A DNA stretch of 64,000 nt from contig NZ_BCST01000001.1 in the NCBI RefSeq assembly GCF_001571005.1, forward strand, positions 496,001 to 560,000. The letters run 5' to 3'. The notes under the pieces were generated by a model. That model was given only the letters and a program-made list of their open reading frames with translations, was not told where the DNA came from and made no database searches. The translations under genes were made by a program, and so were the position numbers. Numbering within the stretch: the first letter of the stretch is position 1; the number at the start of each line of letters is the position of its first letter. Below, in pieces: positions 32,126 to 63,877 of the stretch. The stretch comes from Herbiconiux solani NBRC 106740. Lineage in GTDB: Bacteria > Actinomycetota > Actinomycetes > Actinomycetales > Microbacteriaceae.

Positions 32126-33715
32126 TCAGCGGACCACGGGGTTCTGCGGGCTCGACACGTCGTACTCGACGGCCGCCGCCGGATCCTGCGTCGCGATCAG
32201 GCGCTGCAGGATGACGGCCTTGAGCTCCGAGTCCTCCGCGCTCCCCCACACCACGCGCTGGCCGGCCCCGCCGAAGACGAGGGTGACGCTGTCGGGCGTG
32301 GTGCCGCTGATCCGGTCGACCTGGCTGAGCAGGGCATCCGGAAGCGAGGTCAGCACGGCGGCCGCCGCCTCGAACCCGGGGCTGCCGATCTGGGTGCCGG
32401 TCAGGTCGATCACCGGGAAGCCCGCGATGCGCTCGACGCTCTGCTGCACGGTCACGCCGGCCGCGTCGAGCAGGTCGAAGCCGGTCGCCGTCTGCACCTG
32501 CGCCACGGGACGGCGCTCGACCACGCGGATCGCGAGGATGTCCGGCGGCCGCGCCTCGACCGAGTACGACTCGATCATCGGGAACTGGGCGAGATCGCGT
32601 TCGATCGCCCCGTAGTCGACCAGTGCGAGCGGGCGCCCGACCTGGTCGTCGAGGGCGTTGGTGACCGCGGTGACGTCCACTCGTGAGGTGCCTTCGATCG
32701 CGACCCCGCGCACGGCGAGGAGCGGTGAGTAGGCGGCGAGCAGCACGACGAGCACCAGGCCGGCGACGGCTCCCCCGCTGATCAGCCAGGCCAGGCGACG
32801 ACGGCGGGACCGCTGGGTGAACCGCCGCGACTCGTCGCGCTCGTACCGCTGGCGTGACCGGGTGGCCTGCTTGAGCTGTCGGCGGGCGTCGCCCGCGCGG
32901 GTGCGCCAGGATGCGGCGGTGCCGGTCGCGGGACGGCTCGCGCTCGGTGCTGGCGTGCTCTGGCCCGAAGCGCTCCGTGCTGACGTGCTCTGGGCCGACT
33001 TGCTCGGCGCAGACTTGCCGGAGCGGGCGATCGGTTCGGTGACCCCGGAGTCGGCGGCCTTCGACTTCGCCGACGCCGCGCCGCTCGGGCGCGCTCCGGA
33101 GTTCTTGAGGCCGGCGATCTTCGGTCCGCGTCGATTCGAGGCTGCGCCCTTCCGTGCCACCGGCTCGGTGAGCTCGTGGTCCCGACTCGTGGGGCGCGCA
33201 CCACCTGACTGAGTGCCGGGGGTCGCGGCCTTCGCACCGGCGTTCGCGCCAGCGCTTCGGTCGCGGTCCTCGGGAGCGCGCGGCGTCGTCCACCACGCCT
33301 CGCCGAGCGACGAGCTGCGGGAGGCCGATCCCGAGCGCGGCCGAGCGGACGACGAAGCAGACGGGGCGGCAGGGGCCTTCGAGGTGGATGCGGCCGGGGC
33401 CTCCGCGGGTACGGCCTTCGCTGCCGGGGAACCGCCACCACGGCCGGCACGACCGGGTCGGCCCAGCGGCGTGACCGGTTCCGTCACATCCGAGGCGGAC
33501 GACGAGGAAGCCGGCGATGACGATCGTGCCGACGGTGACGAGGGTGACGACGGCGCAGACGGCGAGGGAGCGGCCGGAGCCGCCTTCGCGTCGGAGGCGC
33601 GAGGCGGCACGGGTCGGCGCTTCGACCCCCGCGCTCCCCGGCCGTCACCCGGCGCGGGCGACCCGGCCGACGGGGGCGGCGGCGGTGGAGGCGTGATGCC
33701 GGGCGGTCTTTTCAC
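32126..33715 (-). CDS. ftsQ: FtsQ division protein with a long disordered N-terminus
   Basis: 529-residue single-pass divisome protein; typical FtsQ is 220-350 residues. Residues 1-300 are cytoplasmic, Pro/Ser/Ala/Arg-rich and without fold. They contain a motif repeated three times: VTEPVTPLG (77-85), LTEPVARKG (182-190) and VTEPIARSG (225-233). The transmembrane helix is about 309-329 ([20 protein letters not shown]). A POTRA domain (about 333-405, [17 protein letters not shown]) and a beta domain follow, the usual sites for FtsB/FtsL contacts. Start GTG 33715 overlaps the murC stop by 4 bases (GTGA). The long tail could bind cytosolic partners. Confidence 0.93.
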
Positions 33716-35220
33716 TCTCCTCCAGCGGCCGCACCGGCCGATGCCGCTGCACCGGAGGCCGAGCCGGAGGCAGAACCTGGGGCCGATCCAGGGGCCGAGC
33801 CGGAAGCGTCGGCATCCGAACCGTCGGAACCGCCCGAACCCAGCGACTCGAGCAGCTGCGGCACGATCAGGTTCACGTCACCGCAGCCGAGCGTCACCAC
33901 GAAGTCGCCCGGCTCGGCGATCGTCGCCAGGTAGTCGGCGGCCCGCTGCCAGTCGTCGATGTAGGCCACGCGCGACGGGTCGTCGAAGCGCTCGGAGACG
34001 AGCTCGCCCGTCACGCCCTCGATCGGGTCCTCGCGCGCGCCGCACACCTCGAGCACGATCGTGAAGTCGGCCGTGCGCTCGAGCGTCTCGGCGAACTCTC
34101 CCGCCATCAGCTTCGTGCGGCTGTACAGGTGCGGCTGGTGCACGGCGATGATGCGGCCCTCGCCGACGACCGTGCGCGCGGCGGTGAGCGCCGCATCCAC
34201 CTCGGTCGGGTGGTGGGCGTAGTCGTCGTAGACGCTCACGCCGCCGACCGTGCCGTGGAGTTCGAACCGGCGCCCGGTGCCGCCGAACGCGCCGATCGCG
34301 GCCAGGGCCGCATCCAGGGGGAAGCCGAGCCCGACCAGCACGGCGGCCGCTCCCGTGGCGTTGATCGCGTTGTGGTGGCCGGGCACGCGCAGGACTCCCG
34401 GGTAGCTCTGGTCACGGTAGTCGACCGTGAAGCGCACGGGCCCGTCGGTCTGGATGGAGTGCACCCGCAGGTCGGCATCCTCGGCCTCGCCGAAGGTGAG
34501 CACGTTCGGGTGCGAGAGTCGCGCCGAGACCCGGAGCGCCCCGGCGTCGTCGGAGGAGATGACGACCAGTTCGTTCGCGGCGTCGGCGAACTGCACGAAG
34601 GCGTCCTCGACGGCCTCGACCGAGCCGTAGTGGTCGAGGTGATCCGGGTCGACGTTCGTGATGAGCGCGACGGCGGTGTCGTAGAGCAGGAACGAGCCGT
34701 CCGACTCGTCGGCCTCGAGCACGAAGAGCTCGCCGTCGCCGAAGGCCGACGAGGTGCCGAGCTCGGAGATCACGCCGCCGTTGACGAAACTCGGCTCCTG
34801 GTCGAGTTCGAGCAGACCGGTGACGATCATGCCCGTCGAGGTGGTCTTGCCGTGGGCGCCGGCGACCGCGACCAGGCGGTTCCGGTTCGAGAGCCAGGCG
34901 AGGGCCTGGGAGCGGTGCAGGATGGTCATCCCGCGCTCCTGGGCCCGAAGGTACTCGGGGTTGTCGGGCCAGAGCGCGCTCGTCACGACGAGGGTGTCGG
35001 CCTCGCCGACATTCGCGCCGTCGTGGCCGACCGCGACCGGGATGCCGATCGCGCGGAGCTTGGCGGCGGTCTTGGAGTCGGTGCGGTCCGAGCCGGTGAC
35101 GGTAAGACCGGCGGCGTGGTAGAGCCGCGCGATGCCGCTCATCCCGCTGCCGCCGATGCCGACGAAGTGCACGGCGCCGAGGTCGTCTGGGATGGGGATC
35201 GAGAGGTCGGGCTTGATCAA
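33712..35220 (-). CDS. murC: UDP-N-acetylmuramate--L-alanine ligase MurC
   Basis: 502-residue cytosolic ATP-dependent ligase adding L-Ala to UDP-MurNAc. [21 protein letters not shown] is the N-terminal UDP-binding motif, [14 protein letters not shown] the P-loop, and [14 protein letters not shown] a catalytic-region signature. After about residue 460 the sequence becomes a low-complexity GS/GA tail ([17 protein letters not shown]), not part of the family fold. Start TTG 35220 was chosen because no ATG/GTG precedes the UDP motif; AAAGGG is 9 bases upstream. Overlaps ftsQ by 4 bases. Confidence 0.95.
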
Positions 35221-49790: not shown

Positions 49791-51809
49791 GTGACCAGTG
49801 CCCCGCCCGACCCCATGCTCGGACGTCTCATCGACGGCCGGTATCAGGTCCGGTCGCGGATCGCGCGCGGCGGCATGGCCACGGTCTACCTCGCCACCGA
49901 TCTGCGCCTCGAGCGCCAGGTGGCCATCAAGATCATGCACGGCCACCTGGCCGACGACGCCGTCTTCAAGGAGCGTTTCGTGCAGGAGGCCCGATCGGCG
50001 GCCCGGCTCGCACATCCGAACGTCGTGAACGTCTTCGACCAGGGCCAGGACAGCGACATGGCCTACCTGGTGATGGAGTACCTCCCCGGGATGACGCTCC
50101 GCGACCTTCTGAAGGATTACGGAAAGCTCACCACCGAGCAGACGGTCGACGTGATGGATGCGGTGCTCGGCGGTCTCGCGGCCGCGCACAAGGCCGGCAT
50201 CGTTCACCGCGACCTCAAGCCCGAGAACGTGCTGCTGGCCGACGACGGTCGCATCAAGATCAGCGACTTCGGGCTCGCCCGGGCGGTCTCGGCGAACACG
50301 GCGACCGGGCAGGCGCTGCTCGGCACGATCGCGTACCTCTCCCCCGAGCTCCTGACCCGCGGCACCGCCGACGCCCGTAGCGACATCTACGCGGCCGGCA
50401 TCATGATGTACGAGATGCTCGTCGGTGCGCAGCCCTACGTGGGCGAGCAGCCGATGGCGATCGCGTTCCAGCACGCCAACGACCAGATGCCCACGCCCAG
50501 CTCGGCGAACCCGGACGTGCCGGACCAGCTCGACGACCTGGTGCTCTGGGCGACCTCGAAGAGCCCGGACGACCGGCCGACGGATGCGCGCGAGATGCTC
50601 GAGCGGCTCCGCTCGGCTGAGGGCGAGATCGCGGGCTCGCGTCGCTCCCCCAATGCGACCGGCCGCACGGTCGTCATGCCGCCCGACACCTTCGACGCCG
50701 ATCTCGACCAGGCGCAGACCCAGGTGCTCGAGGCGCGTCGGCGCACCGACCCGTTGTCGATCCTGGATCCGGATGCGTCGGCCACGACGGTCTACGGCAG
50801 CTCGGTCGCGTCGCGGCCGGGTGCCGGTGCTTCGGCACCTGCCGGCGGCGGGTCGAAGCCGCCGCGTCCCGGTGCCCAGGAGCGGCTCGACCGCAAGGCC
50901 TCGGGCCGTCGGAAGCGCGGGGCGTGGATCTTCGTGATCGTCGTCGTGCTCGCGGCGGCGCTGGGTGGTGGCGCCTGGTACTTCGGAGCCGGCCCCGGCG
51001 CGAAGACGACGGTGACGGATGTGGCGGGCCAATCCTCCGAGCAGGCGGTCGGCACGCTGACGCAGCTCGGCTTCAAGCCGACCGCGGTCCCCCAGTCGAA
51101 CCCCACGGTCGCCTCCGGCACGGTCATCTCCACAGACCCGACGGCGGGCTCCTCGGTGCAGAGCGGCGCGGAGATCACGGTCTACGTGTCCTCCGGCCCC
51201 GCGATGCTCGACGTGCCGACGCTCGCCGGTCTCAAAGAAGCGGATGCGGTGGCCGCCCTGCAGCAGGCCGGCTTCACCTCGGCCGGGTCGACCCAGCAGT
51301 TCAAGTCCGACGTGCCGGCGGGCATCGTGATCGCCCCGCTCGGCGCCGACGGCAACGTGCTCGGCAAGCAGTACGGCGACCAGCAGCCGGTCACGCTCGT
51401 GGTCTCGCTGGGCCCGGTGCCGGATGTGGTAGGCCAGACCCTCGAGGAGGCGCAGGCAACGCTGTTCGACGTCGGGCTCTCGGGCGTGGAGGGCTCGCAG
51501 GACTTCAGCGACGACATCCCCGAGGGCGAGGTCTACCAGGCGGTCGTGACGACCGACCCGGTTCGCCCCGGCGACCAGGTGACCCTCAACATCTCGCGCG
51601 GCCCCGAGCCGGTCACGGTGCCCTCGGGCCTGAACGGCATGTCGTGGACCGACGCAAAGCCCAAGCTCGTGGCCCTCGGCTTCGACCTGCAGTACAACGC
51701 GGTCGCCGACGCCTTCCCCGACACCTTCAAGGTCTCGGCCACCGACCCGGCTTCCGGCACCTCGGTCCCCCGAGGCACCAAGCTCATAGTCAGCTTCAGC
51801 GTCTTCTAG
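49791..51809 (+). CDS. PASTA-domain Ser/Thr protein kinase
   Basis: 672-residue membrane kinase. The N-terminal kinase domain (about 14-275) has the Gly-rich loop ARGGMATVYLA, Lys47 in AIKIMH, catalytic HRDLKPEN (Asp141), DFG (159-161), and an activation loop with T170 and T172 (NTAT), the TxT phosphosites of PknB-like kinases. A juxtamembrane linker and a transmembrane helix (about 379-398) are followed by four PASTA repeats (about 407-470, 472-545, 546-608, 609-672) that bind muropeptides or lipid II. Such kinases link wall state to growth and division. Position next to the Rv2175c-like gene matches PknL, but PknL lacks PASTA domains. GTG 49791 is preceded by TAGACT and no Shine-Dalgarno, suggesting a leaderless message. 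Confidence 0.95.
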   Translation: MTSAPPDPMLGRLIDGRYQVRSRIARGGMATVYLATDLRLERQVAIKIMHGHLADDAVFKERFVQEARSAARLAHPNVVNVFDQGQDSDMAYLVMEYLPGMTLRDLLKDYGKLTTEQTVDVMDAVLGGLAAAHKAGIVHRDLKPENVLLADDGRIKISDFGLARAVSANTATGQALLGTIAYLSPELLTRGTADARSDIYAAGIMMYEMLVGAQPYVGEQPMAIAFQHANDQMPTPSSANPDVPDQLDDLVLWATSKSPDDRPTDAREMLERLRSAEGEIAGSRRSPNATGRTVVMPPDTFDADLDQAQTQVLEARRRTDPLSILDPDASATTVYGSSVASRPGAGASAPAGGGSKPPRPGAQERLDRKASGRRKRGAWIFVIVVVLAAALGGGAWYFGAGPGAKTTVTDVAGQSSEQAVGTLTQLGFKPTAVPQSNPTVASGTVISTDPTAGSSVQSGAEITVYVSSGPAMLDVPTLAGLKEADAVAALQQAGFTSAGSTQQFKSDVPAGIVIAPLGADGNVLGKQYGDQQPVTLVVSLGPVPDVVGQTLEEAQATLFDVGLSGVEGSQDFSDDIPEGEVYQAVVTTDPVRPGDQVTLNISRGPEPVTVPSGLNGMSWTDAKPKLVALGFDLQYNAVADAFPDTFKVSATDPASGTSVPRGTKLIVSFSVF

Positions 51810-62648: not shown

Positions 62649-63395
62649 TCAGGGGGTGATCCGGCCGAGCGCCGAGCGGATGAGGCTCGATCGCACGATC
62701 TCCAGCTGGCCCGCGATCTCCATCGCCATCTCGGCGACCTTGGCCCGGCTGGACGGGTCGCGACGGCGCGCCACCGGCATCAGAGCGCTCTCGATCAGGC
62801 CGAGTTCGCGCTCGGTGGCCTGCCGGAAGCCGCGAAGGTGCCGCGGCTCGATCCCGCTGCGCTGCAGTTCGACGAGGGCCTTCAGCACGACGAGCGAATC
62901 CTCGCCGTACGACTCAGCCGGGGTGAGCACCGCGGCCGAGAAGGCATCCTGCACCAGCATCGGCGTGGCACCCGCCTCGCGGGTCAGATCCTCCCGCGAG
63001 AGGCGACGGCCGGTCTGCAGGATGGACGCCCCGCCCACCAGGGCCGAGCCGGGCATCGGGGGGTTGAGCCCCGCATCCACGTCGGCGAGGTACTCCTTGA
63101 TCACCGCGAGCGGCAGGTAGCAGTCGCGCTGCATGGTGAGGATGAGACGCAGGCGGCTCAGGTCGTTCTGCGAGAACTTGCGGTAGCCCGACGCGGTGCG
63201 GGCCGGATGCACGAGGCCGCGCTCTTCGAGGAAGCGCAGCTTCGAGGGCGTCAGGTCGGGGAAGTCGGCGGTGAGCTTCGCGAGCACCTGGCCGATGCCG
63301 AGCAGCGGGCCCTGCGATGCGGACTCGGAGGCCGGGCTCCCGGGCGCGGACGAAGACGAGGACTCCGCCGACCGGCGGGGCTGTGCGGCTGCCAC
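62649..63395 (-). CDS. ftsR: FtsR-like MerR-family regulator of ftsZ
   Basis: 248-residue regulator. N-terminal winged helix (about 30-105): LLGIGQVLAKLTADFPDLTPSKLRFLEERGLVHPARTASGYRKF (split), then YLPLAVIKEYLADVDAG. This matches FtsR/Rv1828, in Corynebacterium an activator of ftsZ transcription. The rest (about 150-248) is the effector/dimer region. Start GTG 63395 overlaps the FHA gene's stop by one base. The target site proposal is the palindrome at 31941-31967 ahead of ftsZ. Assignment is based on remembered family signatures and location next to garA. Confidence 0.82.
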   Translation of the reverse strand: MAAAQPRRSAESSSSSAPGSPASESASQGPLLGIGQVLAKLTADFPDLTPSKLRFLEERGLVHPARTASGYRKFSQNDLSRLRLILTMQRDCYLPLAVIKEYLADVDAGLNPPMPGSALVGGASILQTGRRLSREDLTREAGATPMLVQDAFSAAVLTPAESYGEDSLVVLKALVELQRSGIEPRHLRGFRQATERELGLIESALMPVARRRDPSSRAKVAEMAMEIAGQLEIVRSSLIRSALGRITP

Positions 63396-63877
63396 TACTC
63401 TCCAGCGGCGGTGACGACGTCGATCCGCGACGGGTAGAACGTGAGGCGGAACTTGCCGATCTGCACCTCGGCGCCGTCGTCGAGGAGCGCCTCGTCGACA
63501 CGCACGCCACCGACGTAGGTGCCGTTCAGCGAGCCAAGGTCGCGCACCGTGAAGGTGTGGCCGTGGCGGGCGAACTCGGCGTGCCGGCGCGAGACCGTCA
63601 CATCGTCGAGGAAGATGTCGGCGTTCGGGTGGCGGCCCACGGTGCTGACGGAGGTGTCGAGCAGGAAGCGGGCGCCCGAATTGGGGCCGCGACGGACGAT
63701 CAGGAGCGCAGAACCGGAGGGCAGGGCCGCGATCGACTCGAGCTCCTCGCTCGTGACTCCGCCTTCGAGGGCGGCCAGCTGCGCCGCGAACTCGCCCGTG
63801 AGGGAGAGCGTCGTGTCGGCGGCCGACGCGGGCACGGGGATGCTCGTGGTGCGATCGTCGTTCGTGTGGTTCGTCAT
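63395..63877 (-). CDS. garA: GarA/OdhI-like FHA-domain protein
   Basis: 160-residue phosphothreonine-binding protein. The N-terminus has ADTTLSLTGEF with T22 and T23, matching the kinase-phosphorylated ETT motif of GarA/OdhI. The FHA domain (about 60-150) has VGRHPNADIFLDDVTVSRRHAEF and GSLNGTYVGG (GRxxxxD, SRRH, NGTYVN-type). Phosphorylated protein folds on itself and stops inhibiting 2-oxoglutarate dehydrogenase and activating glutamate synthase. ATG 63877. Gene order garA-ftsR is as in other actinobacteria. The PASTA kinase at 49791 could phosphorylate it. Confidence 0.92.
   Translation of the reverse strand: MTNHTNDDRTTSIPVPASAADTTLSLTGEFAAQLAALEGGVTSEELESIAALPSGSALLIVRRGPNSGARFLLDTSVSTVGRHPNADIFLDDVTVSRRHAEFARHGHTFTVRDLGSLNGTYVGGVRVDEALLDDGAEVQIGKFRLTFYPSRIDVVTAAGE

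Follow-up and report, generated by a model that had tools for sequence, protein, structure and literature searches.

Repeated T-x-P-[IVL] sites in the long cytoplasmic arm of FtsQ of Herbiconiux solani, candidate targets of PknA/PknB-type kinases

Ser/Thr kinase control of the actinobacterial divisome is unsettled, and in the papers cited here the FtsQ phosphosite is a single site in mycobacteria. FtsQ of Herbiconiux solani NBRC 106740 carries three similar TEP sites on a long cytoplasmic arm, which raises the question of what these sites are and whether relatives keep them. We analysed a stretch of 64,000 nucleotides (the window) that holds the gene and belongs to contig C1 of the 3.85 Mb genome. 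An earlier note on this DNA had described the arm as disordered and about 300 residues long, and had proposed that its three motifs bind a partner or are phosphorylated.

The ftsQ gene and its cytoplasmic arm

Firstly, we delimited the gene and the parts of its product:

32126..33715, minus strand: ftsQ, 529 aa, between murC and ftsZ (translation and Pfam; the neighbours are FtsZ and a Mur ligase by Pfam)
33680..33715, minus strand: conserved N-terminus, residues 1-12, beginning MKRPPG (same-genus comparison, 95% mean pairwise identity)
32906..33679, minus strand: Pro/Ala/Ser-rich linker, residues 13-270, predicted disordered by charge-hydropathy (29% mean pairwise identity)
32792..32905, minus strand: Arg-rich segment next to the membrane, residues 271-308, possibly helical (mean pairwise identity 67% within the genus)
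32720..32791, minus strand: transmembrane segment, about residues 309-332 (hydropathy maximum 317-335)
32513..32716, minus strand: POTRA domain, residues 334-401 (Pfam PF08478, E 1.7e-10)
32186..32500, minus strand: FtsQ/DivIB C-terminal domain, residues 406-510 (Pfam PF03799, E 2.5e-6)

The product is a member of the FtsQ/DivIB family. POTRA_1 (334-401) and FtsQ_DivIB_C (406-510) follow one transmembrane segment and both score above the Pfam cut-offs, and the gene has the dcw location, with murC and ftsZ on either side. The closest named FtsQ match is that of Herbiconiux daphne (84% over residues 276-529), and the transmembrane and outer part of the protein is 80% identical within the genus. 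The start as read is plausible, because its GTG overlaps the murC stop and because RPPG[IL]TPP follows directly, as it follows the start in 15/15 same-genus arms, though the linker behind it is not conserved; this N-terminal agreement is partly built in, since a KRP-type pattern set the starts in the relatives. Just ahead of ftsQ, MurC ends in a Gly/Ser/Ala-rich tail of low complexity (33715-33834).

The cytoplasmic arm spans about 308 residues, and its charge and hydropathy place residues 1-270 on the disordered side (0.412 vs a boundary of 0.445); the length and the disorder described earlier thus stand, the latter as a prediction. Residues 1-309 are net basic (54 K/R, 18 D/E) and contain 9 Glu and 16 Val/Leu/Ile, the motifs taking three of the former and six of the latter. 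By the cut applied to its relatives the arm measures 296 residues and is the longest of 130 Microbacteriaceae arms, whose median is 124.5; a same-genus arm outside that set (L159), subjected to the same kind of cut, reaches 313.

The three TEP copies and the unit kept in the genus

The three copies, read from the translation, are spaced along the linker:

33461..33487, minus strand: motif copy 1, VTEPVTPLG, residues 77-85, Thr78
33146..33172, minus strand: motif copy 2, LTEPVARKG, residues 182-190, Thr183
33017..33043, minus strand: motif copy 3, VTEPIARSG, residues 225-233, Thr226

All three match (V/L)TEP(V/I)(A/T)xxG, as had been noted, and they exceed what chance would give. When the 309-residue arm was shuffled 50,000 times, TEP occurred 0.07 times per shuffle on average against the 3 observed, at least three copies were present in 4e-5 of the shuffles, and three copies of [VL]TEP[VI] were reached in none of them. 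Since the codons differ among the three copies, we rejected a recent tandem duplication of the DNA as their origin.

A codon search for TEP[VI] through the whole genome, in which TEPM is matched as well, yielded 120 places. Of the 100 of them that were listed, no two outside ftsQ lie within 1 kb of each other, while the three of ftsQ lie within 460 bases. Thirty of the 120 were opened; three are those of ftsQ and the other 27 were viewed at the site only, codon composition speaking against coding at several of them. At one place on contig C1, about 564022 and outside the window (L284:621-1595), TTRTEPITPIDLDD is found close to the probable N-terminus of a protein that, we presume, resembles polyphosphate kinase 2.

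Secondly, we compared the arm with those of the same genus, where 15 of 16 genomes gave an FtsQ match. The literal TEP[VIL] occurs in 2/15 arms, the window being one of the two, whereas T-x-P-[VIL] occurs in 15/15 against 2.3 expected from shuffles, which ignore shared ancestry. We therefore rejected TEP, which the earlier note had placed at the core, in favour of T-x-P-[IVL]; the conservation in close relatives that the note had named as its test failed for the literal motif and held for this wider unit. Position +1 varies within the genus (E, A, V, Q, T, I), while Thr, Pro at +2 and the aliphatic residue at +3 are constant. The unit is retained in all 15 arms even though the linker has a mean pairwise identity of 29% over the aligned pairs and ranges from 84 to 275 residues. 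Its position in the arm is variable among relatives and its natural copy number runs from 1 to 4, two or more copies being present in 10/15 arms against 0.2 expected from shuffles. One same-genus FtsQ (L166:1501-2787) has four T-x-P-[IV] sites at intervals of about 26 residues, each in a nearly identical unit (for example AETAPIGRLG), and this arm looks like a local tandem expansion.

This manner of variation bears on whether the motif could be a short linear motif for direct binding of FtsZ, SepF or DivIVA, independently of phosphorylation. Genes for all three proteins lie close to ftsQ, and SepIVA, which is DivIVA-like, is a partner of FtsQ in mycobacteria. A variable +1 between a fixed Thr, Pro+2 and aliphatic +3 is, however, the signature of a kinase site, and in M. 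tuberculosis the binding of FtsZ maps to the Arg/Ala-rich helix of FtsQ (PMC10036325). We regard direct binding by the motif as quite improbable.

Occurrence in Microbacteriaceae and beyond

Thirdly, we searched 150 Microbacteriaceae genomes, 146 of which gave an FtsQ match. The 130 arms counted consist of 30 loci and 100 further ones, 16 of the 146 having been left out before counting. Arm starts were set by the KRP-type pattern in 122 cases and by the first ATG or GTG in 8, and one of them (L032) probably starts too early; the first 8 residues were excluded from the shuffles. Starts of the KRPxG kind are frequent in the family: 93/130 arms match the strict pattern that set the starts, and [MVL][KR][RK]P is found anywhere in 140/160 frames before any choice of start, as a raw count. 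In an alignment of 33 rows, the invariance of M1, R3, P4 and G6 is partly built in by the start choice, and the conservation seen outside the genus is selected, because those rows were mostly chosen for motif-bearing arms.

T-x-P-[VIL] is present in 38/130 family arms, against a null mean of 10.3 and a highest value of 20 in 200 shuffles that ignore shared ancestry. Two or more copies occur in 9/130 arms (0.7 expected), and 25/76 genera have the motif. Control patterns that alter its fixed positions, counted in the same 130 arms, stay at or near what shuffling gives:

S-x-P-[VIL]: 15 arms, 11.3 shuffled
A-x-P-[VIL]: 20 arms, 24.7 shuffled
[DE]-x-P-[VIL]: 19 arms, 16.9 shuffled
T-x-P-[not VIL]: 65 arms, 70.9 shuffled
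T-x-[not P]-[VIL]: 61 arms, 54.5 shuffled
TP-x-[VIL]: 12 arms, 10.2 shuffled
T-x-x-P-[VIL]: 16 arms, 10.6 shuffled, the furthest from the null and still within the shuffle range

Around T[EDGQ]P[VIL] (n=38), the frequency of acidic residues is 0.53 at -3 and 0.37 at -4, against a background of 0.11. The TEPI-like group also has an aliphatic residue at +5 (0.74 vs 0.08, n=38), which the window copies lack.

The arm could alternatively expand and contract by neutral drift of low-complexity sequence, its motifs arising by chance. Its low complexity, its fast divergence and the patchiness of the motif across the family agree with such drift: 92/130 arms and 51/76 genera are without even T-x-P-[VIL], a patchiness that also counts against reading the sites as a phosphosite array. 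The presence of the unit in 15/15 same-genus arms, where shuffles give 2.3, and the closeness of the control patterns to background make drift alone very improbable in our judgement, although the genomes are not independent samples, since the shuffles ignore shared ancestry.

A draw at class level gave FtsQ in 102/118 genomes; 89 were read, and 85 were kept after removal of four Microbacteriaceae that had already been counted. The arm start is uncertain in many of these frames. T[EDGQ]P[VIL] was found outside Microbacteriaceae in 2/85 (ITEPL, ITEPI), both from one genus (g92), in which the other two of four genomes are without the motif. Three other frames from outside the family have only T-x-P-[VIL], with a doubtful start or with the site at the membrane. 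The g92 arm continues as a stretch rich in Arg and Ala that resembles the one in M. tuberculosis FtsQ as described in PMC10036325. Our literature search found no paper combining FtsQ and Microbacteriaceae, and within its partial coverage we recognised nothing on this motif in FtsQ outside mycobacteria.

Mycobacterial FtsQ, candidate kinases and readers

The core of the motif is already known. The earlier note knew it from no described FtsQ; M. tuberculosis FtsQ nonetheless has VTEPL, whose Thr24 has been mapped as a phosphosite more than once (PMC4322841, PMC4389566), and what is added here is the multiplication of the motif in a distant family. The phosphopeptide VADDAADEEAVT(p)EPLATESK carries its phosphate on the Thr of VTEPL (PMC4322841), and PMC4389566 lists phosphorylation at Thr24 for M. 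bovis BCG and M. tuberculosis and none for M. smegmatis. FtsQ phosphorylation goes down with a PknA/PknB inhibitor (PMC5845002, which reports Thr(P)-X-Pro and Glu-X-X-Thr(P) as motifs) and upon pknA depletion (PMC7164672), the passages on this naming no residue. It goes up in the double depletion of pknA and pknB (PMC7164672), so that the kinase assignment is not clean. The suggestion that the motif is a kinase target fits both the mapped Thr24 and the response of FtsQ phosphorylation to PknA and PknB.

The pattern given for pknA sites puts Pro at -1 and +2, Leu or Val at +3 and a basic residue at +4, with acidic residues at -1, at -3 to -6 and at +7 (PMC7164672). All three window copies share with this pattern the Thr, the Pro at +2 and an aliphatic +3 (Val, Val, Ile), and copies 2 and 3 have an upstream acid, Asp at -4. 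They differ from it at +4, which is Thr, Ala and Ala instead of a basic residue, and copy 1, with Asp at -2 only, is without an acid at -1 or at -3 to -6. The aliphatic +5 of the TEPI-like relatives falls outside the pattern.

FtsQ of the window and that of M. tuberculosis are alike in family, in a cytoplasmic arm, predicted to be disordered in the window, that precedes an Arg-rich segment, and in the core [VI]TEP[LVI]. The window arm agrees with the mycobacterial type in length and composition, its juxtamembrane helix being putative. M. tuberculosis FtsQ (Rv2151c) differs in having an arm of 99 residues (about 308 in the window), one motif copy instead of three, an acidic N-tail where the window arm is net basic, and a mapped phosphosite, Thr24, where those of the window are predicted. 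Counting against a phosphosite role, M. tuberculosis FtsQ with a mutated Thr24 reportedly supports viability, with a cell length that is not normal, and its binding of SepIVA reportedly takes place independently of phosphorylation (Jain 2018).

Two genes of the window are candidates for acting on such sites:

49791..51809, plus strand: Ser/Thr kinase, one of three candidates, with four PASTA stretches (Pfam PF00069, PF03793; start as in the earlier note)
63395..63877, minus strand: small FHA-domain protein (Pfam PF00498, E 1.2e-19), which we take to be GarA/OdhI-like

The kinase at 49791 had been singled out as one that could phosphorylate the Thr of TEP. Its being the obvious candidate is not supported, as contig C3 holds a same-strand run of genes for FhaA (FhaA_N and FHA), an FhaB-like protein (FHA), a PP2C phosphatase and two further kinases; both kinases show PASTA signals, of which one is weak and falls under the Pfam cut-off. 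Hence candidate writers, a candidate eraser and candidate readers are all present in the genome.

The balance of evidence is for a conserved kinase-site motif that has become multiplied in the Herbiconiux lineage, and its repetition and retention in a linker that evolves fast, in a distant family, speak for a function of the site. We consider it somewhat better than an even chance that the TEP sites are an instance of a recurring FtsQ-arm phosphosite motif, T-x-P-[IVL], of PknA/PknB type, which acts on septum assembly. Its basis here is the sequence, the enrichment, the retention in relatives, the kinase, phosphatase and FHA genes and the published phosphorylation of the equivalent Thr in M. 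tuberculosis; from these we infer phosphorylation in Herbiconiux, the kinase, the reader and an effect on division. The motif, in most cases preceded by acidic residues at -2 to -4, would be phosphorylated by PknA/PknB-type Ser/Thr kinases at Thr78, Thr183 and Thr226. The phosphates may then alter the contacts of the arm, either with FHA readers (FhaA and/or FhaB) or with the Arg-rich segment next to the membrane; in M. tuberculosis the corresponding segment binds FtsZ and the membrane. Septum assembly would thereby be coupled to kinase signalling, and several copies on a long tether may give a graded or multivalent response.

A stronger form of this explanation has FhaA or FhaB bind pThr-x-P-[IVL] specifically, the copies bringing several such proteins to the septum. 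FHA domains bind pThr, and the residue at +3 influences this recognition (PMC5549992); the motif has Thr and not Ser and an aliphatic +3, and the genome has fhaA and fhaB. An overlap between the interactomes of FhaA and FtsQ is reported (PMC11898655), and phosphorylated CwlM is bound by FhaA (PMC6180346). CwlM of M. tuberculosis is comparable in that the Thr phosphosites made by PknB on the C-terminal tail of this cell-wall regulator are read by an FHA protein (PMC6180346); it is another protein, and FHA reading of FtsQ sites is an analogy only. A kinase preference alone, for Thr, Pro+2, aliphatic +3 and upstream acids, covers the conserved core, which makes FHA reading an extra step, and the paper in which FhaB was said to bridge FtsQ and FtsZ has, according to PMC10036325, been retracted. 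Co-occurrence of FHA domains and motif, tried as evidence, was set aside as uninformative, since all 150 family genomes (150/150) carry FHA domains and it thus provides no test. Specific reading by FhaA or FhaB is a tentative possibility, well short of even.

We think it unlikely that FtsQ of the genus and of some Microbacteriaceae is a multi-site scaffold, that is, a tether whose 1 to 4 pThr-x-P-[IVL] sites gather FhaA/FhaB at the septum, with a copy number tuned by lineage and a single site kept in motif-bearing mycobacteria. Were this so, FtsQ would be a main input by which kinases that sense the cell wall set the timing of septation in actinobacteria with long arms.

The phosphates might instead act by charge alone, loosening or tightening the Arg-rich segment on the membrane or on FtsZ, with no reader involved. 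In M. tuberculosis, the only ordered part of the 99-residue FtsQ arm is an Arg/Ala-rich helix, to which acidic membranes and the GTPase domain of FtsZ bind; a spin label places the residue-24 region near this helix, and acidic residues of the N-tail bridge its Arg residues (PMC10036325). The Arg-rich segment of the window resembles that helix in place and composition (PMC10036325) and is kept in the genus (67%). Against such a switch, the window arm is net basic, and its copies stand about 45 to 190 residues from the Arg-rich segment, at positions that vary in relatives, which leaves little geometric constraint. An action by charge alone is therefore doubtful. For the PknA/PknB-type phosphosite motif that we prefer, Herbiconiux, which is not known to be pathogenic, offers a non-mycobacterial system for tests of kinase, reader and mutants, with copy numbers of 1 to 4 as a built-in series.

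The linker, otherwise poor in hydrophobic residues, also holds a Trp-Trp motif, EAWWTTP (residues 138-145, 33281-33304), possibly a second interaction site in the arm. It is found in the FtsQ arms of 11/160 extracted loci, namely in 6/15 same-genus arms and in a few other genera, with PWWTTP, PWWLTRR and AWWMNK as variants elsewhere.
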